From positions 62,001-126,000 of the forward strand of contig ML991850.1 of NCBI GenBank assembly GCA_010094025.1: a stretch of DNA of 64,000 nucleotides, read 5' to 3'. This document shows positions 7,548 through 64,000 of this stretch, one piece after another (the first letter of the stretch is position 1; each line of letters opens with the position of its first letter). This stretch comes from Viridothelium virens. Its lineage: Eukaryota; Ascomycota; Dothideomycetes; Trypetheliales; Trypetheliaceae. The position numbers and the translations under genes are program-made. The notes under the pieces were generated by a model that did no database searches, was not told the origin of the DNA, and saw only the letters and a program-made list of their open reading frames with translations.

Positions 7548-8785
7548 TCAAACAGAAGATGAGCCTTGGGAGGAGTTGAACTGAGCAAGTGCAAGCTTGT
7601 AGGATTTCTGAGCCAGTCTGGTTTGCTCCAATGCGGTGATTGATGAAATTATACCAAAAATAATGGTAAGCACAGCGATAATAGCCGCGAGCCAGAATGT
7701 CCACCATTGCATCGGATTGTTGCGGCTATACCGTAGCTGACGATATCCGATACGCGGCGCATTAAACGCATCGATCAATTCTTCAAGCCGGCGACGCCAG
7801 ATTATAAAAACCTGCAGTTCCAAGGTGGTTGACGGTGATGGTTGATGGATCCTGTGGAGCGGCTGTTTCTCCTCTTTTAGAAAATGGCGAGTTTTCTTAT
7901 CACCGTAAGGAAACAAAATTTCCAAAGTCCACAAAGTCTCAAGCAAAACTTGCTTTGGTATGACACAATCGACTTGCTTAGTATGGCTTATGATGCACGC
8001 TTTATGGGCATAAATGCACAGTGTTCTGTGAAGGGAATTGTAGAGGAGATGGTCAGTCAGATTAGAGGTCCAGCAAATTCGTATGCCTGCTTCTCTTTGA
8101 ATATTCACAGCCGTGAGATCATGCTGAATTTTCGCATCTGTATTGGAGTTGGAGAAGTCGTGTGTGGGAAAGCATCGGCTGATGATATCCTCCATACTCC
8201 AATCAGATTCCCAGTGCGCCACCGTCGAACTTGAGTTGAAACGTGGCAATTGGATGGTAGCCGAGCAAACGCTCAGAGTTAGCCAGAAATGAATGGTCAA
8301 GTCAACCCCACGGCAGATCTGGTCCAAGCTAGCGTTCGGGAAGATTTCGCTTTGGATCATAGTGACTATTGAATGTTGAGCAGCCGATCGATGGCGTTCA
8401 ATGGCAGCCTTGACCCTGAAAATGTCGTCAAAAGTTTGAGTTGCAAACTCGTGAGCAGGAATCCCAGGATGGTCGGTCATCACCTGAAGTGCATACTCAA
8501 GGTGTTCGAAATATACCTCAAAGTCAGCCACTGAAGATGAAGATGAAGATGATGGCCAGAACGATGAGACTATTGCTTCCCGATCACTCTGTGAGAGCTT
8601 GCCGCCGGCGTGAAATAGTGACTGCATAGTTCACCACTGTCAAATCCTTCCTGCAATAAGTCTGGATTCGGAGTCCAGATTGCAAACCGTCCTTTCCATA
8701 ATGTCTGATTGAATAGTAATAAACTCGCAGCTTCATCAGCCTGATCATGCCCAACTCTCAGCCTAGTCGGTGGCTCAGCCACCAC
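7548..8785 (-). CDS. Membrane-anchored fungal hypothetical protein, with a frame break near its N-terminus
   Basis: The main open frame is 8627-7548 (359 residues). It carries the pattern of a family common in filamentous ascomycetes: IHFWLTLSV, a W-x3-WSMEDI block, NLTDHLLYN, LLETLWTLEILFP, then WRRRLEELIDAFNAPRIGYR and NNPMQWWTFWLAAI leading into one transmembrane segment at about residues 308-331, with a 28-residue tail. The family has no known function. Upstream, another frame (8785 to about 8600) encodes ADEAASLLLFNQTLW and IWTPNPDLLQEGFDSGEL, which looks like the genuine N-terminal part. The two frames overlap and differ by one base around the GCCGGCGGC at about 8600-8612. Either this is a one-base indel or assembly error, or translation starts at 8627. 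An exon start at about 8803 after a TTTAG acceptor is also possible. The gene is head-to-head with the protease-ATPase fusion. Confidence 0.65.
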
Positions 8786-9190: not shown

Positions 9191-12100
9191 ATGGCATCTC
9201 ACGAAACGCCATGTGCCTGCTTGAGATCTGATTTTGAAGCGGATATACGTCAAAAGCTTGATGATGATTTAAGACGTCTCATAGACCGTGTTCAAGCCGT
9301 CACCAACGTTCCAGATGCTTGCGCCGAGTTTAGGTTGATCGGCCGCAAGAAGCGTGGTCTTATTCAGGCGACGCCCACTGTACTGATAACCTGTTACACG
9401 AAGGAGTGTCAGCAAGCCGTCAAAAAGCACTTCCAATCCAAAGAACGGCCCAACTACTTATTGAGTTTTGGAAAGCCCGTCTTGGTCAGATTGCAAAGCC
9501 CTCGACTCCGGTGGGCCGCTCAAAGCGAGCCCCATATCCCAACAGGGCCACTACCTGAAGAAATTAAAATAACGGATCCCACCGATGTGCACGTTAGCTT
9601 TGAAAGCATCACAAATAGCGAATCAATAGCTGGTTCTCTGATGAAGTTTGAGTTTGCAAGTGGAAGCGGACGCAAAGCTCGTTACTCCCGTTTGGGTGGA
9701 GTTATCGATATTGACGGCGTAGCTCACATGTTGACCACTGCGCACGCTTTCGTCACACCCGCGGCACAGGTCGATCGAGCTACAACTCCGGATCAAGAAT
9801 CAGCCGATGCCAGTGACAACGATGTGCTGTACATCAACTCGGAAAGCGAGACTCATGACGTGGAGGATCCATCAGATGCAGAAAGCACAGCTGAAGAAGA
9901 ACCTTCCAATGTCTCGAACGTCTCAAATTGGTCCGCGACCAGTGATGTTGGAGTCTGGGTATGTGGCAAAGACCATGGTGGTGAAGTAGAAAACGGCGCC
10001 TTGAGCTCGGACGTGCATGGTTCAGACTGGGCAGTCTTCAAGACCTCTAGCGCATACTCAGATAGAAACACATACAGCTATCACGCTCCCGAGGGACCGC
10101 CTGAAGTCATATCAATTTGCTCTATCGCTGGAGGTAGTGCCGATGACCTCTGCGGCGATGCGCTCGTGTTGGGCAGCCGTTCACGCGTCCTTCCCGGATA
10201 TGTGCACAAATCTAGAGTCTCAATGTACAGTAACGGTGACGTATTCCATCTACACCAAATTCGTATGGAGGCAGAACTTGGTATGTACACATACTTTTGC
10301 CATTCCGTACCCTTTCAGACGTCCCTAACGTGCTTGTTCTAGATTTTGCTCTCTCGGGTTCGTGGGTTGTCCGGGGCTCTTCTCTCCTTGGTATCGTCGT
10401 TATGGCCGACGACGAAGCGAAGGCACTTTACATGATTCCGGCCCAACAGACGTTTATGAGCATCAAAGCTACCCTTGGGGCTCAGTCGGTTGGGCTCAAG
10501 CAGACATCTCCTACCCCACGAGAATTAGCAGTTCGTCGTTCAGCGAAGAATGTCCAGGCTATTAATTCCAGTGACTCTTCTCCATCGCTACCGGGAAGTG
10601 AACCATTTGGAACGCCGCCAGATGCCATCCCTGGAATACAAGAAAGTGTAAGAGACTTTAAGGACTCGTCACAACGATGGCAGATCATCCATCGCGTCCG
10701 CCGCCACGAAGCATGGTCATCCTCGGTGGTAACTAAAAGCGTGGGACAATGGGATCTATGGCTTGACAAGCCTCGTTGGCGCCGTGAACCGGAAATTTCT
10801 CGGTACGACGAGGAGTCTATTGGAGACCCACAAGCAAGTGTTGCCCCCGTGTCTCTTAGGGGATCAATTCCGATCCCAGATGTCAATACCTATCTCTATC
10901 ACCACAGGAATACCTTGTTCGTTGTCATCCGAGACTATGAACAGAATACCCGCCAGCCATTCCTATGGGGAGACATTCCGTCCTCAAGAGATATGATGGC
11001 CCTCGCTGAAAAGGATGGTCCGCCGCCTTCAAGTGAGATGGTCTCGATCGTTTCCACCGATCTCTACAAGGTCTGTGACAAGATGTTTACCCTACTCCCC
11101 TACCGACCCAACAGCTTCAGACCCAAGCATAAGTACCAGCTAAACGCACCATATCTCTCGATCTATCATTCTCGCAAATCACTTAAGCAATGTGCTTTAC
11201 AGCTTGGTCCTCAAGAACTCGAGATTTGGGAAGTACTTATCAGATATATACTGGAGACTTATGGCGGCGATTATGAGAAAGCGGACAAGTTAATCTCGGA
11301 AGGGCGGATTACGAAATCGTTTCTCCCGTATCTGTTTAAGCCAAAGCAACACATGGTCCGAAATAATAATGGGGTCTTGCGAGCCTACAAGTCTGATTCC
11401 TGGCTGAAAGTTTCGAAAAGAAGACTGATTGCGGAACGAGACAATGACAGTGGAGATGAAATTTCATCTCCAGGTAATGGTGGCCTATCTAGCCTATCTG
11501 AGAAAGACAACAGCTCTTCTCCTGGAGATGAAGAAGCCTTAACCCCGTATTTTTCCACTGATGAGGAAGACGAAAACCAGTGCACTTATGAAGTCATCTC
11601 TTGGGCTGTTCAAAGTCACTACTGGGAATTCGATGGAGAATTCTATGTCAAGTCAGAAAAATTTGACATCCCATGGACTTGGTCAAATGAAGACATGGTT
11701 CCGATCAGTGAACTGAGTTTGTATCCACTTGATTCGGCCGAATTATCCGTCCGCGATTCACTTGTGACTAGAGGGCGTCGGTTTTGGAGCTGCCGCAAAC
11801 AATGTTATGTCGCATACAAAGGCAAGGACGGCCGTCAGGCAAGTATCAACCTACCAATGGCGCAATTGGAACTGACAATTGAGCCTACAGACAGATGCAA
11901 GGTATATTATTGATACAATGACATTCAACATGATTCACCACAGACACCAAAAGCTCCCAGCCAGCCGCAGAAGGCTTGATGCGGCATCATTCCGGCCTGA
12001 TGAACTATTCTTTACACTTCTCCCAGCCGAAATTATGGGATTCAGTTTACTTACGAAAATTTGGGGTAAGTAAATTGCTGACTACCGTTGCAACGTTCGA

Positions 12101-12962
12101 CTAAAGTTTTTTTTCAGCCTCTTTAAAAATTGATAGAATAGAAGAAGTTCAATGGAACAACGAAGCTTTTGAAAGGCTCGTAATACCCGATCAGACCAAG
12201 GAACTAATAAGAGCTCTCGTCGACAATCACTCGGACGCTGAAGAGCACGATCTCATTGCTGGAAAGGGAAAAGGGCTGCTTATACTCTTACACGGAGCTC
12301 CCGGTGCGGGTAAAACATTCACAGCGGAGTGCGTAGCTGAAAAGGTAGAAAAGCCACTATATCAGGTGTCATGTGGTGAAATTGGCACTGATCCAAGCGA
12401 GTTGGAGAGATATCTGGGATACGTATTCGACCAAGCTAACAGATGGGACTGCATTGTGCTTCTGGACGAAGCAGATGTCTTCCTACAGCAGAGGGATCTC
12501 TCGGACCTACAGCGAGACTCACTAGTCTCTGCCTTTCTTCGAATACTGGAGTACTACAGCGGAATACTTATGTTAACCACGAATCGGGTAGGTATCTTCG
12601 ATGAAGCTGTCGTATCCAGGATCACACTCGCCCTCCATTATACCGTCCTCGGTAACGAGCAGCGGGGGATGATCTGGTCAAATTTCTTCAACCTCTTGGA
12701 AAAAGGGGAGACCGGACTTGAAGTCGACTTTGATGATCTGCGTCTCCACCTTCGTGATCTTGCAGAGAAGGCCATGAACGGCAGACAGATTCGAAATGTC
12801 ATTACTACAGCCAGACAGCTTGCAAAGTTTAGAAGGCAGCAACTCGATTTTGGGATAATACAGCAAGTTCTCGGGGTTTCTGGCAAATTTGATCAATACT
12901 TGAATGAGGTGCGGAATGGCTTGGATGACACTGAGGCCGCTCGAATGAGAGGGTCTCGTTGA
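9191..12962 (+). CDS. Trypsin-like protease / DUF7025-like / AAA+ ATPase fusion protein
   Basis: Four exons, 9191-10280, 10343-11838, 11891-12065 and 12118-12962, give 1201 residues in phase throughout. Residues 1-110 form a helical N-terminal domain. Residues about 150-410 form a trypsin-like domain: H185 in LTTAHAF, D279 in SDWAVF, and S368 in FALSGSWVVRG, followed by LLGIVVMADD and ALYMIPAQQTF, the usual end of fungal 'GDSGSWV' proteases. The residues before the serine are Ala-Leu instead of Gly-Asp. Residues about 600-880 match the DUF7025-type region that precedes fungal AAA ATPases. The AAA+ module has Walker A GAPGAGKT at 980-987, Walker B IVLLDEADVF (D1037, E1038) and sensor-1 TTNR at 1074-1077, then a lid. 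Intron 2 (11839-11890) has a GC donor (CAG|GCAAGT). Without it, the conserved ARYIIDTMTFN block falls in the wrong frame. A role as a sensor ATPase coupled to proteolysis is inference. Confidence 0.82.
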
Positions 12963-13691: not shown

Positions 13692-14137
13692 TTATGTATG
13701 GCTCCCAGCAGCTCCCGTAACTCTCAGCACAAAATTGACAATGACTGCTGCTAAAAGCGCAACAGCGAGCACCGTTGGTCCATATCGATCATCAAATCCA
13801 CCCTGACCCCGTTTCCGTATGCTCTGTGCCCTCCAGTGGAAGGTGAAGAGGGCATATATCATGGTGGCCATGGCAACGAGAGTGAAGAGTCCCGCGCTGA
13901 TTTGACCGACCTTGTCGCCGAAGTTGAGGAGGCCAATTGCAAGGCCACCAAGGATGACGGTGAAGTTAAGCCATGAGAGGAAAGTTCGTTCGTTCGCAAA
14001 GAAGACTTTGGGTTCGACGCGGGTAGGTAGAGCGATACGCTTGCCTAGAACTGAACGATTAGTCCTGGAGCCGAATGAGATCGATCATGTCCAACATGCG
14101 TACCGGGAGCTGTCTGGAGAAGAGGCTGGCTTGACAT
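13692..14137 (-). CDS. VTC1: Vacuolar transporter chaperone subunit Vtc1
   Basis: Two exons, 14137-14104 and 14044-13692, give 128 residues, close to the 129 of yeast Vtc1. The 59-base intron (GTACGC donor, GACTAAT branch, TTCTAG acceptor) splits a glycine codon: [24 protein letters not shown]. The family signature is unmistakable: [20 protein letters not shown], then three membrane helices at about residues 33-54, 60-80 and 101-119, with the conserved [11 protein letters not shown] loop and [12 protein letters not shown]. Vtc1 is the small membrane subunit of the VTC complex, which makes polyphosphate and moves it into the vacuole; its basic residues contribute to the polyphosphate channel. 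It is head-to-head with the dynein light chain gene. Confidence 0.95.
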
Positions 14138-62242: not shown

Positions 62243-62982
62243 TAATTCACTAATGTCTCGACCACTCTACGTGGACGCGAGCTGCTAGCCTCAACAGCTA
62301 CAGTCACGATGAATAGGTTTAATGACAGGCATGTGCCATGCATTTTGAGTTTTCAACAGCCATATATCATGATGGGATGGCGTCGTGCCGCATGGTTTGG
62401 AGCAGGGTTCGCTTCAACATTGACGGGTCTCACTCATCTGGAGATCTTGTAGACAACATCTAGAGATGTCTACGCGCCTGAATGTGGCGCTTCAAAAGCT
62501 TTACACGCTCAACGCGTGTTTTCTCCTCTGTCTTCTTACAATTAATACTATACTTTGTGCATAAGGCTCTGGCAAGAGCAACTTCATAGATACCCAAATT
62601 CAACAGGGACAATTGGTTGGAAGATCTTACCGTACACCTTTAGTCCTCGCAAGCTGTAGAGTGTCAGTAAGAGTGAATCGCCAAGCTTTGCCAAAGGCTC
62701 CAATATAGAAAGCTAAGGTAGTGAACTCATCATCGGTCGTTGTACATGTTTCCACAGCCAGCTCGTGATACGAGTGCAATACTTATTGTGTATCAAGTCT
62801 TTAATGCTGGACGTAAAGACGTGTTCGGGCAGCAATTGCCCTTGTGATACCTTGCTTCTTCCCTGAGATGATGTCCCACTAAGTCAAACCACTTAGATCC
62901 GGCGCAACCTAGTAGTGGCGCACCCCCCGCATCCAACTCAATTAATTCATCCACCAAATCAACTACCTCAACGCGCGTGAAT
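62243..62982. other. Intergenic, MET6 3' side and transposon left flank
   Basis: No gene. The stretch 62895-62935 (CGGCGCAACCTAGTAGTGGCG and a following C-run) may be the left end of the transposon, but the right end is outside the window, so a terminal repeat cannot be tested. Confidence 0.4.
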
Positions 62983-64000
62983 ATGTACGACCGTGAAGCT
63001 GCTATGGCAGCTGCTTCTGCAGATCTTGATGCAGGTATTTCTTTATCTATTAATTCAGCTGCTGACGCGTACGGCGTCCCGCGAACTACACTCAGAAGAC
63101 GACTCCACGGATACCAAATACGCCAGAAAAGTCATCAACATGAACAGCGATTGTCTCCAAATCAAGAGGACTTCCTGCGAGATTGGATCCTTGAAGAAGA
63201 TACGCGCGGATATCCTCCCTCTCACGCTTGTTGTTGTAAAATGGCCTCTTGAATCCTTTGAATAAATGGTGACAAAAAACCTTTAGGCAAGAATTGGGTC
63301 ACAGCCTACCTAACATGACACCCTAATATTGCTACACGCGTAGGTCGCAAGCTAGAAGCTAGGAGGACTGAATATGCTACAAAAGAGGAGGTTATAGCGT
63401 TTTTGATGTGTTATGAAGATGTAAAGCTGCGCTATAATATCCAACTTGAAGATATTTATAATATGGATGAACAAGGTATTAGCCTTAGTGTTTGCTCCAA
63501 CTTAAAGGTTCTGACAAGCTTAAAGAAGAAGCAAACACTGCAGAAAACACCTAAGACGTGTGAATGGGTGTTAATTATTAAGGCTATCTCCGCAACAGGC
63601 CGAGTTATTAACCCTCTGGTTATCTTTAAGGGGCAGAACCTACAAACAGATTGGTTTATCCCTAATAAGATCCCTGATTGGCAGTATACTATTTCTAAGA
63701 GAGGATGGACCTTAAATAAGATTGGATTGGGTTAGTTGCAGCGTGTATTTAACCCTTAAACACATCCAGTTTATGGTGGATGGAGGATGCTTATCTTAGA
63801 TAGCCACGGCAGCTATATCGACTTTGATTTCCTATTTACCTGCAAAATAGTTCTCAACATTGCTTTGGTGTTTCCTCCACCTTATACAACCCATATTCTG
63901 CAGCCCTTGGACCTTACTGCCTTCAGCCCTGTCAAAACTTGCTATCGGAGCCAAATCAGCCAACTTGCAGCAATTAATAATGCAGCGCCTATCAAAAAGA
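62983..64000 (+). mobile_element. Broken Pogo/Fot-type (Tc1-mariner superfamily) DNA transposon, runs off the window
   Basis: The frame from 62983 encodes a CENP-B/psq-type helix-turn-helix (AADAYGVPRTTLRRRLHG, then LSPNQEDFLRDWIL). A broken stretch with GKNWV and HPNIATRVGRKLEARRTEY follows. From about 63403 comes the DDE_1 catalytic domain: IYNMDEQGIS (first Asp), WVLIIKAISATGRVINPLVI, FKGQNLQTDWF, and later LILDSHGSYID (second Asp) and ILQPLDLTAFSPVK. Reading needs several frame changes and passes in-frame stops (for example at 63733 after KIGLG and soon after in the VFNP stretch), so it is inactive. The element continues past 64000. Cysteine-rich SHACCCKMAS at 63220-63250 is out-of-frame reading at a break. 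Confidence 0.85.

Follow-up and report, generated by a model that had tools for sequence, protein, structure and literature searches.

Two intracellular fungal signalling proteases, SltB and Ssy5, are found in the literature. SltB of A. nidulans is described as having a pseudokinase at approximately residues 350–550, followed by a trypsin-like domain with a predicted H-D-S triad (PMC4557415), and it is reported to cleave itself and then the transcription factor SltA (PMC11011638). Passages of the 2015 study that gives this layout state that no gene resembling the protease part of SltB alone was found in the genomes analysed (PMC4557415). Ssy5 (MEROPS family S64), the protease of the yeast SPS amino-acid sensor, is reported to activate Stp1 and Stp2 through cleavage (PMC12958826) and is described as a single-domain protein (PMC5567314). 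Trypsin-like domains coupled to NTPases are described in the prokaryotic trypsin-STAND and MoxR-vWA conflict systems (PMC7159879, PMC10907252). The titles, abstract starts and passages covered by our literature search contain no description of a fusion of AAA and trypsin-like domains in fungi, S64, Ssy5 and SltB included, and no paper naming DUF7025 was found.

Here we analyse a gene of Viridothelium virens, a tropical lichen-forming Dothideomycete of the order Trypetheliales, located in a window of 64,000 nucleotides (G000:C80:62001-126000). Its product joins a trypsin-like domain to a DUF7025-AAA ATPase. With SltB it shares the trypsin-like H-D-S domain, and the presumed V. virens counterpart of SltB (C48, see below) is part of its family alignment. 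However, in SltB a pseudokinase comes first and the protease last, whereas in the fusion protein the protease is N-terminal and its partner is DUF7025-AAA; no kinase-like Pfam match to an SltB-type N-terminal pseudokinase was found in it. The likeness to Ssy5 is that of an intracellular PA-clan signalling protease: one member of the family (C118) matches Peptidase_S64 (PF08192) at E 1.1e-4 and 21.3 bits, below the cut-off of 23.6, but the fusion protein has no match to this profile up to E 10, and Ssy5 stands as a single domain (PMC5567314). Regulation would differ as well, since the SltB/Ssy5 protease is controlled by a pseudokinase or a prodomain and not by an AAA ring, as we propose for the fusion protein. 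The prokaryotic systems use NTPases of other classes, encoded in several of them by separate genes.

One gene encodes the protease-like domain and the ATPase

The gene is predicted to run on the plus strand from an ATG at 9191 to a stop codon at 12962 in four exons, with a product of 1201 residues in the order N-terminal piece, trypsin-like domain, DUF7025, AAA and fungal AAA lid (Table 1). The single product claimed by the preliminary description is borne out by this model, which needs three GT-AG introns and has no internal stops. The open frame 10240–11913 contains both the S368 motif and DUF7025, and the central part of the fusion is therefore independent of splice prediction. The deposited protein, EV356DRAFT_364803 (P0001, 920 aa), starts at an upstream in-frame ATG (9089), has the same intron 1 and is annotated with DUF7025; it lacks the AAA module because it reads into intron 2 and ends there. 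When introns 2 and 3 are spliced out, the DUF7025-AAA-lid order of the relatives is restored, and residues R888 and D892, both in exon 3, are kept by 116 of 119 aligned relatives, the remaining three having a gap. An environmental relative (P0121) seems to run into intron 1 at the matching place. With an alternative acceptor for intron 1 at 10318, eight more residues would stand ahead of DFALSG and ALSG would be unchanged; we kept 10342 because the intron would otherwise be only 38 bases long, CTAAC lies after 10318 and the deposited model uses 10342. We thus regard the layout of protease-like domain, DUF7025 and AAA in one product as confirmed, as a prediction from genomic sequence.

Table 1. 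Predicted features of the fusion gene, with positions in the window
Feature	Position	Strand	Content or basis
Exon 1	9191..10280	+	Residues 1-363 and base 1 of codon 364; N-terminal piece and first protease-like part; family alignment
H185	9743-9745	+	Exon 1; triad His
Acidic, Ser-rich H-D loop	9746-10024	+	Composition
D279	10025-10027	+	Exon 1; triad Asp
Intron 1	10281..10342	+	GTATGT...CTAAC...TTCTAG; branch-like CTAAC; junction identical in deposited P0001
Exon 2	10343..11901	+	S368 motif, linker, start of AAA module, DUF7025; single open frame
S368	10354-10356	+	Exon 2; within motif ALSGSWVV
DUF7025, residues 677-828	11281..11736	+	Pfam PF22942, E 2.2e-9, above cut-off
Intron 2	11902..11953	+	GTATAT...AAAAG; retained in deposited model
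Exon 3	11954..12065	+	Splice model; conservation of R888/D892
Intron 3	12066..12117	+	GTAAGT...CTGAC...TTTCAG; branch-like CTGAC
Exon 4	12118..12962	+	AAA domain and lid, up to stop codon
AAA domain, residues 976-1090	12282..12626	+	Pfam PF00004, E 2.5e-16, above cut-off; conservation
Walker A GAPGAGKT	12294-12317	+	AAA domain
Walker B D1037-E1038	12465-12470	+	AAA domain
Sensor 1 N1076	12582-12584	+	AAA domain
Arginine finger R1088	12618-12620	+	AAA domain
AAA_lid_13, residues 1098-1187, with sensor-2-motif R1143	12648..12917	+	Pfam PF23232, E 1.9e-10, above cut-off

The N-terminal part belongs to a small family of protease-like domains

Residues 1–460 are recognized by none of the Pfam, NCBIfam and single-sequence PDB searches, the last of these giving two matches for the protease part, neither of them a protease. 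A protein search with residues 1–440 found the protein's own deposited version as the sole match among 7992 scored candidates. Searching the V. virens assembly (30.7 Mb) with the protease part yielded two other matches (E 0.067 and 1.65) that do not look like relatives by their ORF lists.

GDSGSWV is a motif typical of fungal trypsin-like proteins, and a genome scan for it led to the locus C52 (L033), which is alike in the order of its elements and matches the fusion protein at 44% of 50 residues around the Ser motif (pairwise E 7e-5, for a small target set). C52 is a standalone member, and its reading frame is broken once ahead of the Ser motif, by a pseudogene mutation or a sequencing error. 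When two mismatches were allowed, the motif scan gave 30 forward and 30 reverse matches against 14 and 19 for a control pattern, and these results are mostly chance; two candidates from it, C18 and C26, with a GD-S-G-W motif in short ORFs, were not found by the family profile and were discarded.

An alignment of the fusion protein with C52 finds two environmental proteins, P0121 (E 3.6e-100, 56% identity) and P0122 (E 1.2e-13), and P0122 in turn finds the fusion gene (E 4.3e-10, in exon 1) and C52 (E 0.004). C52 as a query finds C54 (E 1.1e-38) and C48 (E 2.2e-4), while C48 finds C54 (E 4.9e-5), C52 (E 6.8e-5) and C118 (E 0.017); C118 is recovered at E 2.5e-11 by a profile from which it was left out. 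The family thus has seven members: the fusion protein, four further loci in the V. virens genome (C52, C54, C48 and C118) and the two environmental sequences. As single queries of the genome the domains of C52, C54 and C48 did not find the fusion gene, which was found only by P0122 and by profiles. In the portions of C52 and C118 that were scanned, Pfam gave no second domain.

Membership of the fusion protein was examined with a hold-out profile of five members, from which it and P0121 were excluded. This profile finds residues 1–470 at E 2.7e-23 in a small target set of 510 sequences, the best of 200 shuffles reaching E 1.4; it has no match in residues 471–1201 and finds nothing below E 2.6 among 119 AAA relatives, the results being given without the rows of the family's own loci. 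The profile includes C48, and the match thus points to homology with an SltB-like protease domain, C48 being taken for SltB by its layout.

As to the fold, which in PA-clan peptidases is a double beta-barrel, the AlphaFold model of P0001, made with a three-sequence alignment, has a pLDDT of 29, too low for the model to be of use. In a PDB search with a limit of E 10, the seven-member profile has three matches. The first two are Streptomyces griseus protease A (SGPA), aligned at the His motif (E 0.27), and the trypsin-like Der p 3, aligned at both the His and the Ser motif (E 1.6); the third is an unrelated protein that matches in an acidic stretch. Of the six matches of a four-member profile, five are PA-clan enzymes aligned at the His motif, namely protease A and four nsp4 sequences of arteriviruses, and none of the five matches of a reversed control profile (six members) is a protease. 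These matches are weak, none being significant alone, and their weight lies in their place and kind.

The catalytic positions are conserved and the oxyanion glycine is replaced

The alignment of the seven members has seven invariant columns (C68, G169, G170, G176, H185, D279 and G336), which include the His and Asp of the triad. The nucleophile is Ser in five of the six members that reach S368 and Cys in the sixth (C54); P0121 stops before it. The order His, Asp, Ser/Cys of PA-clan proteases is thus conserved across the family. The triad goes beyond chance, given the E-value of the hold-out profile and the presence of H185 and D279 among so few invariant columns, and the three residues named in the preliminary description stand at the positions given there, now with the family's conservation behind them.

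The nucleophile is preceded by GD in four members, by GS in P0122 and by AL in the fusion protein, which alone has ALSG where the five others have GDSG, GSSG or GDCG. Since A-L takes the place of G-D or G-S before S368, the oxyanion hole may be impaired, and whether the predicted domain is an active protease is uncertain. Between the His and the Asp, six of the seven members have an acidic, Ser-rich loop with 38–40% D, E or S against 16–21% elsewhere, the exception being C118 (23% against 21%). This loop is a possible site of phosphorylation or autoinhibition.

The C-terminal part is a classical AAA ATPase

From approximately residue 465 onward the fusion protein aligns with fungal DUF7025-AAA-AAA_lid_13 ATPases at ~33–46% identity, the best relative being P0002 of Exophiala spinifera (42% over residues 590–1201). 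It belongs to these ATPases by three Pfam domains over their cut-offs and by intact ATPase motifs: K986, T987, D1037, E1038, N1076, R1088 and R1143 are identical in all 119 DUF7025-AAA relatives, in agreement with the intact AAA+ module claimed earlier. Two other positions depart from the relatives, all 119 of which have T in place of A984 (12306-12308, in Walker A) and F in place of V1085 (12609-12611, beside the arginine finger).

The motor is, as judged from its sequence, a classical AAA of the p97/Msp1 class and not a STAND NTPase, and the earlier analogy with STAND proteins is not supported: Pfam AAA scores 60.7 bits (cut-off 21.2) and is followed by the fungal AAA lid, whereas nSTAND3 (17 against 27.2) and NPHP3_N (14 against 24.8) stay below their cut-offs. 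The nearest PDB relatives of the AAA part are NVL/Rix7, Msp1 and p97. The AlphaFold model of P0002 has a pLDDT of 80 overall, with values below 50 at residues 523–535 (Walker A), 628–632 and 637–644, and its comparison by VIA-align covered mainly residues 481–692. By Foldseek, proteasome Rpt subunits and FtsH are among the best AAA matches; the FtsH match is limited to the AAA fold, and whole-model TM-scores are low (0.13–0.18 among the matches listed).

None of the 119 relatives examined carries the protease domain, and this comparison of domain architectures upholds the view that the layout is unusual. Eight of them align from before residue 457, the earliest from residue 379, and no best alignment reaches the triad; a second match of one relative (P0031) to residues 132–186 is at chance level (E 1.3). 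DUF7025 is accompanied by AAA in 105 of the 119 listed relatives. Labels at the N-terminus are Zn2Cys6 in two and a C2H2 finger in one, and the N-terminus of DUF7025-AAA proteins is therefore variable. The V. virens genome has about 20 DUF7025-AAA ATPases.

The protease domain occurs with other partners

Three relatives appear to join the domain to other partners, which makes the AAA fusion one of several settings. C48 (L063:362-5056, G000:C48) is a single 1564-residue ORF. It has an N-terminal HeLo domain that passes the Pfam cut-off, continues with a match to DUF7580 at residues 378–573 that stays below its cut-off (21.7 against 27), and has the protease at its C-terminal end, where H, D and S of the triad lie at approximately residues 1050, 1228 and 1362. 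DUF7580 ahead of a C-terminal protease matches the layout described for SltB (PMC4557415), and on this layout, set against SltB by its description only, C48 is presumed to be the V. virens counterpart of SltB. The HeLo domain of C48 has no mention in the passages that describe SltB.

C54 (L064:1964-5566, G000:C54) has the Cys nucleophile (GDCG), followed by an MFS transporter. Its two parts would be joined through a transmembrane-like segment and one splice to the MFS_1 ORF. The segment was recognized by eye in an ORF of 199 residues that contains the Cys motif and in which Pfam found nothing. In P0122 the protease and MFS_1 (over the cut-off) share one frame. By analogy, C54 and P0122 may resemble a one-chain version of the yeast SPS sensor, in which a transporter-like receptor works with the protease Ssy5. 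Taken across these settings, the domain looks like a mobile signalling protease of the SltB/Ssy5 type.

A proposed AAA-gated signalling protease and its alternatives

The domain's kinship with signalling proteases points to cleavage at specific sites in signalling and away from breakdown in bulk, and the class of the AAA motor points to a ring that is driven by ATP and remodels a partner. Putting the two together, we propose, with a probability of roughly 0.4, that the gene encodes a cytosolic signalling machine in which a PA-clan domain of the SltB/Ssy5 kind is gated by an AAA+ remodelling ATPase. From the domains and their relatives we infer how the machine might assemble, act and be regulated, and on what substrate. 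The N-terminal 420 residues would form a PA-clan (chymotrypsin-type) protease domain of the SltB kind, with Ssy5 more distant, and the C-terminal 730 residues would belong to the fungal DUF7025/AAA_lid_13 family of classical AAA+ remodelling ATPases. The AAA domains would form a ring powered by ATP, a partner would bind to DUF7025 or to the lid, and nucleotide state and assembly would release the protease domains or bring them together. These would cut themselves or one specific partner, such as a latent transcription factor or an executor protein, and not degrade proteins in bulk; regulation would act at the acidic, Ser-rich loop that separates H185 from D279.

If so, the fusion could couple ATP-driven remodelling directly to a switch that works by proteolysis, and a first function would come within reach for the DUF7025-AAA ATPases. 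A domain family associated with transporters, a HeLo-pseudokinase and an AAA motor would also make modular proteolytic signalling in fungi directly testable. It is rather doubtful, though conceivable, that one SltB/Ssy5-type domain serves filamentous fungi as a plug-in switch, attached within one chain to various sensing or moving parts: to an AAA+ motor here, to MFS in C54 and P0122 and to a HeLo-pseudokinase in C48, with the ring of the fusion protein gating a site-specific protease.

Since the oxyanion glycine is lost in the fusion protein alone, the main rival is a pseudoprotease, in which the domain no longer catalyses and would instead give the AAA motor a head for binding or for recognizing substrates. 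ALSG, unique among the six members that reach the nucleophile, speaks for this explanation; however, His, Asp and Ser are all retained, as in the rest of the family, and PA-clan enzymes do not necessarily lose activity when alanine takes the oxyanion position. We consider it somewhat unlikely. A degradative AAA protease, in which substrates would be unfolded by the motor and passed on to the protease in the manner of FtsH or Lon, is suggested by the presence of motor and protease in one chain and by the Rpt and FtsH matches of Foldseek. Yet the protease is N-terminal, behind ~250 residues of linker and DUF7025, the proteases of its family signal without a motor, and the likeness to FtsH extends to the AAA fold only. 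No Pfam match to the FtsH and Lon peptidase domains (zinc M41, Lon S16) was found in the fusion protein, and an FtsH-like protease was dropped for the difference in peptidase; the degradative reading as a whole seems very unlikely. Least credible, and barely so, is a gene-model artefact in which a protease gene and an AAA gene are read as one. The deposited model stops ahead of the AAA part and the listed DUF7025-AAA relatives lack the protease, as such an artefact would have it, but one open frame is common to S368 and DUF7025, the deposited product also carries DUF7025, and the AAA part is linked to it by ordinary introns, in the combination usual among the relatives.

The preliminary description had suggested a sensor-executor by analogy with immunity proteins. 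In a receptor of immunity or cell death, the AAA part would sense a trigger and the protease would free an executor, as with proteases and fungal gasdermins, whose genes are reported often to cluster with genes of multidomain proteases (PMC12881547). This link keeps some probability because C48, a relative in the same genome, joins the protease family to HeLo, a fungal cell-death domain, and the variable N-terminus of the 119 relatives also counts in its favour. Several observations weigh against it: the NTPase is not of the STAND/NACHT type and Pfam found no repeat domain; for fungal NLRs, the passages available name the peptidase classes S8 and CHAT; no Pfam cell-death family occurs among the 11 ORFs of the neighbourhood scanned, although fungal gasdermins may escape Pfam; and C48 itself resembles SltB, a protein of cation and pH stress. 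The gene of the fusion protein shows no sign of such a role on its own account. We judge the receptor improbable, SltB and Ssy5 being better supported than an immune executor as a comparison for the protease part.

Surroundings of the gene

The surroundings, previously characterized as secreted and orphan genes, are mixed: four of ten neighbouring ORFs match a Pfam family over the cut-off, among them DUF202, a short-chain dehydrogenase and a leucine-rich repeat protein, and the other six have no match over it. One ORF of 359 residues on the minus strand (7548-8627) matches no Pfam family over the cut-off and carries a hydrophobic segment close to its C-terminus; its start faces that of the fusion gene at a distance of 563 bases. 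The DUF202 protein, also on the minus strand (13692-14084), is possibly a VTC1-like vacuolar transporter chaperone. Near the end of the window (62793-63735), ORFs resemble by eye pieces of a DNA transposase.
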